A model generated the notes under the pieces. The model searched no databases, was not told the DNA's origin, and was given only the letters and a program-made list of their open reading frames with translations. From the NCBI GenBank assembly GCA_028870665.1, contig JAGWPB010000003.1:1-64000 (forward strand): 64,000 bases of DNA, in the 5' to 3' direction. The stretch is from Lysobacteraceae bacterium (GTDB lineage Bacteria > Pseudomonadota > Gammaproteobacteria > Xanthomonadales > Rhodanobacteraceae). Below, piece after piece: positions 37,513 through 41,722 of this stretch (positions within the stretch are counted from its first letter, which is position 1; each line of letters starts with the position of its first letter). Made by a program: the position numbers and the translations under genes.

Positions 37513-38223
37513 ATGCTGCCGGCCTCTCCGCAGTCAGCCGCGCCCGTGATCCGTTTCGACCAGGTCAGCAAGCGCTATCCCGGTGGCCATGACGCGCTGA
37601 GCCAGATCAGCTTCGAGCTTGGCGCCGGCGAGATGGCCTTCGTCACCGGCCATTCCGGCGCCGGGAAGAGCACCTTGCTCAAATTGCTGGGTCTGCTCGA
37701 ACGCCCCAGCCGTGGCGCGGTCATGGTCGGGGACGTCCATCTCGGCACGGTGCGCCGGCGCGGCATCCCGCGTCTGCGACGGCAGGTCGGCATGGTCTTT
37801 CAGGACCACCGCCTGCTGATGGATCGCAGCGTGTTCGCGAATGTCGAATTGCCGCTGGTGGTTGCCGGCGTGCCCGCTGCCGAACGCGGCAGGCGCGTAC
37901 GCGCGGCGCTGGAAAAGGTCGGTTTGCTGTCGCACGAGAAAAAATCGCCGCCCGCGCTGTCAGCCGGCGAACAACAACGCGTCGGCATCGCCCGCGCCAT
38001 CGTCGGCAAGCCGCCGCTGCTGATTGCCGACGAGCCCACCGGCAACCTCGATCCCCAGCTGGCGGTGGAAATCATGGGCCTCTTCGCCGAGTTCCAGCAG
38101 GTCGGCACCACGGTCCTGGTCGCCACCCACGACCTGTTCCTGATCAAGCGCATGCGCAAGCGCGTGATCGTGCTGGATCATGGACGGATGGTGGACGATG
38201 TCGCCGCCGCGGAGGTCGTGTGA
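37513..38223 (+). CDS. ftsE: Cell division ATP-binding protein FtsE
   Basis: TGHSGAGKSTLLKLL, LSAGEQQRVGIARAIV, LIADEPTGNLD. Confidence 0.95.
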   Translation: MLPASPQSAAPVIRFDQVSKRYPGGHDALSQISFELGAGEMAFVTGHSGAGKSTLLKLLGLLERPSRGAVMVGDVHLGTVRRRGIPRLRRQVGMVFQDHRLLMDRSVFANVELPLVVAGVPAAERGRRVRAALEKVGLLSHEKKSPPALSAGEQQRVGIARAIVGKPPLLIADEPTGNLDPQLAVEIMGLFAEFQQVGTTVLVATHDLFLIKRMRKRVIVLDHGRMVDDVAAAEVV

Positions 38224-39197
38224 GCAGGCGTCGCGCGCGTCGCGGTGATCCGGTGCCGGCAGCGACGCTGTCGGTGCGCGGGCGCATCGCCGCCTGGCGC
38301 GGGCAGCATGCGTGGAGCCTGCATGCCAGCCTGCAGCGGCTTGCGGCGCATCCGATCGGCACCGCGCTCACGCTGACGGTGATGGGTCTTGCGTTGGCGC
38401 TGCCGCTGGCCTTCTACCTGGCACTGGGCAATCTGCAGCGATTCGGCGCCGCGCTCGGCGAGAGTCAGGCGATCAGCGTGTTTCTCAAGCCCGACCTCGG
38501 CGCGGCGGGGGTGGCGGGGCTGGCCGCGGATCTGCGCGGCCGCACGGACGTCGCCGCGGTGGCCCTGCGCACGCCGCAGCAGGGGTTGGCCGAGCTGTCG
38601 GCGATGCAGGGTTTCGGTCCGGGGCTGGCGATGCTGGCCGACAATCCCCTGCCGTACGTGCTGGTGGTGACGCCGCGCGCGGGTCTGGACGCGCGCGCCG
38701 GCCAGGCATTGGTCGCCGCCCTGCGCGCGCTGCCGGCGGCGGATCGGGTGCAGGACAACAGTGCCTGGCGCGGTCGTCTGGATGCGCTGCTGGCGTTGGG
38801 TCGGCGCGCGGTGCTGCTGCTGGGCGCCCTGCTGGCGCTGGCGGCGCTGCTGGTGGTGGGCAACAGCGTTCGTCAGGATATCCGGGCGCATGCCGAGGAA
38901 GTGGCGGTGTTGCGGCTGGTCGGTGCCAGCTCCGGATTCGTGCGGCGACCGTACCTGTATGCGGGCATCTGCTACGGTTTCGGCAGCGGGGTGGTGGCGG
39001 TCGCGTTGGTGCTGCTGCTGGAGTTGGCCCTGGCCGGTCCGGCCGCCATGCTGGCGACTGCGTGGGGCGGGGGGTTGCGTTTCGCCGGCGTCGCGCCGAG
39101 CCTGTTGCTGGCCGTGCCGTTCGCCGCTGCCCTGCTGGGCTGGCTGGGTGCGCGCATCGCCGGTGCGCGCCATCTGGCCGCGGCCGAGCCGCATTGA
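38220..39197 (+). CDS. ftsX: Cell division protein FtsX
   Basis: Four TM segments; overlaps ftsE stop; FLKPDL and RAHAEEVAVLRLVGAS. Confidence 0.93.
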   Translation: MSRRRARRGDPVPAATLSVRGRIAAWRGQHAWSLHASLQRLAAHPIGTALTLTVMGLALALPLAFYLALGNLQRFGAALGESQAISVFLKPDLGAAGVAGLAADLRGRTDVAAVALRTPQQGLAELSAMQGFGPGLAMLADNPLPYVLVVTPRAGLDARAGQALVAALRALPAADRVQDNSAWRGRLDALLALGRRAVLLLGALLALAALLVVGNSVRQDIRAHAEEVAVLRLVGASSGFVRRPYLYAGICYGFGSGVVAVALVLLLELALAGPAAMLATAWGGGLRFAGVAPSLLLAVPFAAALLGWLGARIAGARHLAAAEPH

Positions 39198-39211
39198 GTC
39201 GCGAGGGTCCG

Positions 39212-40051
39212 ATGGAATCCAGCATCAGCCGCCACATCGCCAGTGACCATCCGCGCGTGCTGGTGGTGGACGGATCGAAAGTCGTGCGGCGCCTGATCGA
39301 GCAGGTGCTGCATGCCGAGCTGAGCGGTGTCAGCGTGATCGGTTGCGGCAGCGGCGCCGAGGCGCGCGCCGCACTGGAGCAGGCGCCGGTGGATTTCGTC
39401 ACGACTGCGCTGCGGCTTCCGGACATGGACGGGCTGGATCTGGCGCGCAGCGTGCGCATGCACGCGCCGCAGGCCTATGTGCCGATCGTGGTGGTTTCGG
39501 GCGACGTCAACGAACGCCTGCAGGCACGTGCGCTGGGCGAGGACGTCACCGACTATTTCGACAAGTCGCTCGGCTTCGGGGCCCTGGCCGAGTTCATCCG
39601 CGGCTATGTGCAGCCGCAGGGGCAGGCGAGCGGCGAGGTGCTGTACGTCGAGGACAGCCGCGTGGTCGCGCTGGCCACCCGGCGAATGCTCGAGAAGCAC
39701 GGGCTGACGGTGCAGCACGTGGTCAGTGTCGAAGACGCGCTGGTCCTGCTCGACGCCGCCAAGGCGGCCGGCAGCGTGGGCGCCGACGTGGTGCTGACCG
39801 ACGTCAACCTGAAGGGCGAGCTGACCGGCGGCGATCTGCTGGCGCGCATCCGCAGCGACTACGGCTATGGCAAGGGCCGGCTGCCGGTTCTGGTGATGAC
39901 CGGCGACGACAATCCGCGCAACCAGGCGGTGCTGCTGCGCGCCGGGGCCAACGATCTGGTGCAGAAACCGATCGAGGAACGGCTGCTGGTCACCAAGCTG
40001 CTGTTCCAGTTGCGCGTCGGCCGCCATCTGCGCGAGCACGCCGGGACGTGA
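39212..40051 (+). CDS. Tandem-receiver response regulator
   Basis: Two REC-like domains: [16 protein letters not shown]... and [18 protein letters not shown]...[15 protein letters not shown]. Confidence 0.85.
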
Positions 40052-40755
40052 GCGATTCGCGGCTGCGCCTCGAGTCGAGCTGGAAGGCCGCACTCGGCGA
40101 TTACTTCGATCGCCCCGACATGCAGGCTCTGGCTTCATTTCTGCGTGCCGAGAAGGCCGCCGGCAAGCGCATCTATCCGCCCGGTGCGGAGATCTTTGCC
40201 GCGCTCGATGCCACGCCGCTGCCGGCGGTGAAGACGGTGATCCTGGGCCAGGACCCCTATCACGGCCCCGGGCAGGCGCACGGACTTTGCTTTTCGGTGC
40301 GGCCCGGCGTGCCAGTGCCGCCGTCGCTGGCCAACATCTTCGCCGAGATCGAGCGCGATCTCGGCATCGCGCGTCCCGACCACGGCTGCCTGACGTCGTG
40401 GGCGCAGCGCGGCGTGCTGTTGCTCAACGCCGTGCTGACGGTGGAGGACGGTCGTGCCGGTGCGCACCAGGGCAAAGGTTGGGAAGGCTTCACCGATGCC
40501 GTCGTCGATGCTCTCAACCGGCGTCGCGAAGGCGTGGTGTTCCTGCTCTGGGGCAGTTACGCCCAGGCCAAGGGCCGCCTGATCGACCCGCGTCGCCATG
40601 CGGTGCTCAAGGCACCCCATCCCTCGCCGCTGTCGGCCCACCGGGGCTTCATCGGTTGCGGGCATTTCTCGGCCTGTAACCGCTATCTGGATCAGCAAGG
40701 CGCGGCGCCGATCGACTGGTCGCTGCCGCCGCGGAGTGCGCTCACGTCTTGTTGA
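40048..40755 (+). CDS. ung: Uracil-DNA glycosylase
   Basis: [45 protein letters not shown] start overlaps the upstream stop. Confidence 0.95.
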
Positions 40756-40777
40756 CAAGCTTCCTGTACTATATAGT
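40749..40777 (+). promoter_or_regulatory. Candidate sigma70-like promoter for rpoH
   Basis: TTGTTG (40749-54), 17 bp spacer, TATAGT (40772-77); overlaps the ung stop codon. Confidence 0.45.
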
Positions 40778-40809
40778 TCATGTATTGGCCTCGGGAACCC
40801 TGGGCCGCC

Positions 40810-40836
40810 TTAGCACTCCAATAGGTCGAGTGCTAA
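40810..40836 (+). promoter_or_regulatory. CIRCE element (HrcA operator), perfect consensus
   Basis: TTAGCACTC-CAATAGGTC-GAGTGCTAA matches TTAGCACTC-N9-GAGTGCTAA at all 18 fixed positions. Confidence 0.97.
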
Positions 40837-40864
40837 AATGAACTGAATCGCAGGAGGTCCGTGC

Positions 40865-41722
40865 ATGTCGCAAGCCCTGATTCCCGCCACTTTCCCCGCT
40901 CTGAGCGCGATGGGCAGCATCGATGCCTACATCGGCGCGGTGTACCGCATTCCGGTGCTCAGCGCCGAGGAAGAGCATGCACTCGCCGTGCGCTACCAGA
41001 GCGACGCCGATCTCGAGGCGGCCAAGAAGCTGGTGCTCTCCCACCTGCGTTTCGTGGTGCACGTGGCCCGCGGCTATTCCGGCTACGGCCTGCAGCTGGC
41101 CGATCTGGTGCAGGAAGGCAACATCGGCCTGATGAAGGCGGTCAAGCGCTTCGATCCCGAGCAGGGCGTGCGTCTGGTCAGCTTCGCCGTGCACTGGATT
41201 CGCGCCGAGATGCATGAGTTCATCCTGCGCAACTGGCGCATCGTCAAGGTCGCCACCACCAAGGCGCAGCGCAAGCTGTTTTTCAATCTGCGCAAGTCGA
41301 AAAAGCGCCTGGGCTGGATGAATGCCGAGGAGGTGCGCACGGTGGCCAGGGACCTGGGTGTACCGGTGGCCACGGTGCTGGAGATGGAGTCGCGGCTGAG
41401 CGGCCGCGATGTCGCATTCGACGCCCCCGATGATGCCGACGAGGACGCCAGGCCCTCGCCGGTGGCGTATCTGGTCGATCATTCCGCCGACCCGTACGCC
41501 ACGGTGGCCGAAGCCGATCAGGACGACCGCGACCACGACAGCCTGCACACGGCCATCGAACGTCTCGACGAACGCTCGCGCGACATCATCCAGCGGCGCT
41601 GGCTCAATGAGCCCAAGGCCACGTTGCAGGAGCTGGCCGACGAGTATGGCGTCTCGGCCGAGCGCATTCGCCAGGTCGAGGCCAACGCGATGAAGAAGAT
41701 GCGTGCGCTGTTCGCCGCCTGA
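40865..41722 (+). CDS. rpoH: RNA polymerase sigma factor RpoH (sigma-32)
   Basis: [63 protein letters not shown] (RpoH box region); RBS caggaggtcc. Confidence 0.96.

Follow-up and report, generated by a model that had tools for sequence, protein, structure and literature searches.

The textbook account of RpoH control comes from E. coli, in which HrcA is absent and regulation of translation and of protein stability dominates. The E. coli rpoH promoter P3 is a sigma-E promoter, and groES is a classical target of the repressor HrcA, whose operator is the inverted repeat CIRCE. Elements of a different arrangement have been reported in separate bacteria. For Geobacter sulfurreducens, a CIRCE 5' of rpoH was predicted in 2004 (PMC545781, Table 8), and the same paper refers to a 2003 survey that covered beta-, gamma- and epsilon-proteobacteria. 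In vitro, SigE of Bordetella bronchiseptica directs transcription from the rpoH (fam) promoter (PMC3490749), and in Campylobacter jejuni HrcA binding is stimulated by GroE and abolished by heat (PMC8533110). Here, we describe an rpoH locus in a 64 kb window (the whole stretch of DNA analysed), where CIRCE, a sigma-E promoter motif and a sigma-70 promoter motif share the same DNA.

The operator before rpoH and its distribution

The rpoH control region of the window contains the HrcA/CIRCE regulon pattern TTAGCACTC-N9-GAGTGCTAA with 0 mismatches, the full site reading TTAGCACTC-CAATAGGTC-GAGTGCTAA (Table 1). An earlier note on this DNA had reported an exact CIRCE 28 bp before the rpoH ATG, and both the exactness and the distance are borne out. 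This CIRCE is the sole match with at most 3 mismatches in the 64 kb, where dinucleotide shuffles lead one to expect 0.01 matches by chance. The whole genome (2.6 Mb in 112 contigs) holds one further site at that threshold, which has one mismatch and lies 46 bp 5' of the groES start codon. The encoded RpoH shares 80% identity with the Dyella flagellata protein and 76% with that of a Rhodanobacter assembly, which makes a place in the family Rhodanobacteraceae most likely. ftsE-ftsX stand 5' of rpoH, a likeness to E. coli (window positions 37513-40755), and between ftsX and rpoH lie ung and a response regulator with two receiver-like domains (39212-40051).

Table 1. Features of the rpoH locus, in window coordinates
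Feature	Position	Strand	Evidence or remark
ung, uracil-DNA glycosylase, 5' neighbour	40051..40755	+	NF003589 345.6 bits; start approximate
Family-specific element TGTACTATATAGTTCA (TGTAC-N6-GTTCA)	40765..40780	+	at least 8/10 matches in 52/56 family loci
Sigma-E -35 element GGAACCC (family and class consensus GGAACTT)	40794..40800	+	16 bp 5' of the -10
CIRCE (HrcA operator), perfect 9-9-9 inverted repeat	40810..40836	+	kept before rpoH in family and class
Weak sigma-70 -35-like hexamer TTAGCA	40810..40815	+	inside CIRCE left arm; consensus scan
Sigma-E -10 element TCCAA (TCnnA)	40817..40821	+	last two bases of CIRCE left arm and first three of spacer
Extended -10 of sigma-70 promoter, TGC-TAAAAT	40831..40839	+	CIRCE right arm plus AAT
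Shine-Dalgarno AGGAGG of rpoH	40853..40858	+	direct sequence reading
rpoH, heat-shock sigma factor sigma-32, 285 aa	40865..41722	+	TIGR02392 416.1 bits, cut-off 323

The regulators that such a site calls for are encoded in the same genome. The presence of hrcA, on which the earlier proposal of HrcA control depended, is confirmed by a full-length gene (TIGR00331, 291.6 bits) that stands 5' of a GrpE-like reading frame, and an rpoE equivalog was also found (TIGR02939, 325.7 bits, cut-off 236). Whereas the classical hrcA operon carries CIRCE, a CIRCE-like site was not found 5' of hrcA here, which suggests that the gene does not repress itself through CIRCE.

Alignment of related rpoH upstream regions, a check that the earlier note had proposed, places CIRCE at the orthologous position both in the family and in the class. 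Within the family sample of 58 rpoH loci (30 + 28, the window's own included), a CIRCE with at most 3 mismatches is present at 56 and absent at that threshold from two, and in the class sample (72 genomes from other families, mostly one per family) it was found at rpoH in 59 genomes. Shuffled leaders gave CIRCE in 0 of 2000 cases. The site occurs at rpoH in 56 of the 62 hrcA-positive genomes versus 3 of the 10 without detected hrcA (Fisher p = 1e-4, a value that, like the other p value given below, is indicative only and overstates certainty because related genomes, which are not independent, were counted as such). Most of the named betaproteobacteria (Pandoraea, Trinickia, Herbaspirillum, Nitrosomonas, Polynucleobacter, an assembly labelled Bordetella and others) carry CIRCE at rpoH, as do gammaproteobacteria that include Methylocaldum, Halothiobacillus, Leucothrix and one Pseudoalteromonas. 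The sampled Enterobacterales and Vibrio have no CIRCE at rpoH, and a control search of E. coli returned no HrcA match. The arrangement is not peculiar to the lineage of the window, being widespread in beta- and gamma-proteobacteria; its extension to other classes of the phylum was dropped, since none of 22 rpoH loci from those classes has CIRCE. The sampled spread of CIRCE and hrcA suggests that the arrangement is old in the class and tends to disappear together with hrcA.

Two further sets of loci deserve mention. Two genomes in which hrcA was not found have a one-mismatch CIRCE at rpoH, so that either hrcA lies in missing sequence or the operator is an orphan. In Xanthomonas, Luteimonas and relatives (five loci), the rpoH site is shifted towards TTAGCAGTC-N9-GACTGCTAA or partial forms of it, which perhaps reflects an altered specificity of HrcA.

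Promoter motifs that share DNA with the operator

When rpoH leaders are aligned on CIRCE, a sigma-E-type motif, GGAACTT-N16-TCnnA, is conserved across the operator's left boundary, with A as the third base of the spacer. The window's version, GGAACCC-N16-TCCAA (40794-40821), fits the pattern GGAACTT-N15/17-TCnnA with 5/7 matches in the -35, where the family consensus matches better. The gap from GGAACTT to the TC that closes the left arm is 16 bases in 90 loci and 17 in 28, and GGAACTT is found at the expected offset in 97 loci versus a median of 2 at other offsets. As a control, we compared 158 rpoH CIRCE sites with 43 CIRCE loci at groES. The -35 (at least 5/7 matches, N15-17) accompanies 120 of the 158 rpoH sites versus 1 of the 43 groES sites, and A occupies spacer position 3 in 124/158 versus 7/43. 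This A is tied to the -35 motif, being present in 110 of the 120 rpoH sites with it versus 14 of the 38 without (p = 3e-11, again only indicative), and among the nine spacer positions a strong association with the -35 is confined to positions 2 and 3, both within the proposed -10. Enterobacteria, which have no CIRCE at rpoH, still have a sigma-E-type motif 5' of the gene.

The second motif lies at the other end of the repeat. A consensus scan of positions 40500-40900 made a single sigma-70 call, TTAGCA-N18-TAAAAT at 40810-40839, with 9/12 matches; together with the TGC before TAAAAT, it fits an extended -10 pattern with a weak -35, and the conservation of this poorly matching TTAGCA cannot be told apart from that of the HrcA site. 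Across the aligned leaders, two bases and then a T come after the right arm, which yields TGCTAnnnT, most commonly in the form TGCTAAAAT. This extended -10 is present at 142/158 rpoH sites versus 5/43 groES sites, and it does not require the sigma-E -35, as 37 of the 38 rpoH sites that have no such -35, often from Burkholderiales, nonetheless have the extended -10.

These overlaps bear on the architecture that had been proposed earlier, in which CIRCE lay downstream of a candidate promoter that overlaps the stop codon of ung. The scan found no -10 at 16-18 bp from the TTGACA at 40752-40757, leaving a promoter at that place unsupported, and the idea of an operator that simply follows an upstream promoter fares no better, given that conservation falls on promoter elements that overlap the operator itself. 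Between TTGACA and CIRCE lies the family-specific element TGTAC-N6-GTTCA, whose distance before CIRCE varies from about 41 to 85 bp among family rpoH leaders and which is perhaps a further promoter or a second operator. A role as a regulon motif was rejected, since the genome holds no perfect copy besides the one at 40765-40780. It could be argued that HrcA binds CIRCE as a roadblock to a main promoter located upstream (TTGACA or TGTAC-N6-GTTCA, 40752-40780) and that the overlapping motifs are minor. The retention of TGTAC-N6-GTTCA in the family (Table 1), in some loci with TGGACA 17 bp before TACnAT, favours such a promoter. However, none of 59 class loci reaches 8/10 matches to the element, whereas conservation of the overlapping motifs extends across the class, and the sigma-70 scan calls no promoter at 40752-40780 in the window. 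We therefore regard a roadblock below an upstream main promoter as improbable.

A predicted HrcA gate over rpoH

The presence of hrcA, the conservation of the site at 56/58 family loci and its retention in the class mainly where hrcA is retained make a hierarchical circuit from HrcA to rpoH the best reading of the locus. In this respect the hierarchy envisaged in the earlier note stands, and only its placement of the operator downstream of the promoter had to be given up. We consider it quite probable that 40810-40836 is a genuine HrcA operator and that HrcA controls rpoH transcription by occluding the sigma-E and sigma-70 promoters, HrcA binding and repression at rpoH and the activity of both promoters being predicted from sequence. 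Since the operator shares DNA with both -10 elements, HrcA bound to it would exclude RNA polymerase from both promoters, so that a single repressor could close two rpoH start signals, and it would also impede transcripts coming from upstream. By analogy with other bacteria, GroEL-GroES would keep HrcA active until unfolded protein occupies GroE, or HrcA itself is inactivated by heat, at which point rpoH could be transcribed and sigma-32 would switch on the wider heat-shock regulon. Envelope stress would feed in via sigma-E. The operator would thus act as a gate, in which HrcA must leave first, after which one of two sigma factors, the housekeeping or the envelope-stress one, could raise rpoH. 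Several observations run counter to this operator model: 6 of the 62 hrcA-positive genomes and 2 of the 58 family loci have no CIRCE at rpoH, 3 genomes without detected hrcA keep it, the window's own sigma-E -35 is a comparatively weak match, and the sigma-70 -35 is poor and inseparable from the operator.

It is also conceivable that the link is vestigial, the sequence being kept solely as the rpoH promoter and HrcA having no role there now. A sister-family genome with no hrcA match (G294) speaks for this view, as the promoter motifs GGAACTT-N16-TCCAA and TGCTAAGAT persist there. The CIRCE left arm of G294 has decayed, however, while it is near perfect where hrcA is present, and promoter function alone does not need both full arms; a purely vestigial operator is therefore very unlikely. 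The same holds for the suggestion that the inverted repeat works mainly as an RNA hairpin (for mRNA stability or as a thermometer). A 9-bp hairpin could form in a transcript begun upstream, but folding of the leader is no stronger than that of shuffled sequences (z = +0.54), an Rfam search gave no match, and the Shine-Dalgarno sequence is not part of the hairpin. Starts predicted from the overlapping promoters, near 40827 for sigma-E and near 40846 for sigma-70, omit most or all of the repeat from the transcript, and GACTGC opposite GCACTC in many species of one family genus breaks the central pairing.

Comparison with known heat-shock circuits

The predicted gate combines parts that are familiar from other systems. 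With the classical HrcA/CIRCE operons (groESL, hrcA-grpE-dnaK-dnaJ) it shares the operator sequence and the repressor, and this genome itself has a CIRCE at groES. The two kinds of site differ in how they relate to the promoter, since CIRCE at groES lies 3' of a CTTGA-type promoter and supplies no -10, whereas CIRCE at rpoH supplies the -10 elements. A close precedent is Geobacter sulfurreducens, with the same operator before the same gene at a similar place (site at -51) and HrcA control predicted (PMC545781). That species belongs to a different class, and promoter overlap is not described in the part of PMC545781 consulted. In view of this 2004 prediction, the presence of CIRCE at rpoH was already known in kind, and we claim newness solely for the overlap of promoters with operator and for the conservation of this overlap across the class, of which no description was found in the literature searched, a body that leaves most subscription papers outside.

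The E. coli rpoH P3 promoter and the B. bronchiseptica fam promoter (PMC3490749) resemble the window in having a sigma-E-type GGAACTT-N16-TCnnA before rpoH. E. coli differs from the window in yielding no HrcA match, and the enterobacteria in having no CIRCE at rpoH. Our data suggest that, in most relatives, HrcA gates rpoH at an operator overlapping sigma-E and sigma-70 promoters. If so, the repressor-based and the sigma-factor-based heat-shock strategies would be parts of a single hierarchical circuit, which envelope stress enters through the same gate. On balance, we favour the broader view that in most Gammaproteobacteria (betaproteobacteria included) the HrcA operator and the two rpoH core promoters are the same piece of DNA, so that a chaperonin-sensing repressor would gate both the housekeeping and the envelope-stress routes to sigma-32, and that the ungated rpoH of E. 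coli represents a derived loss.
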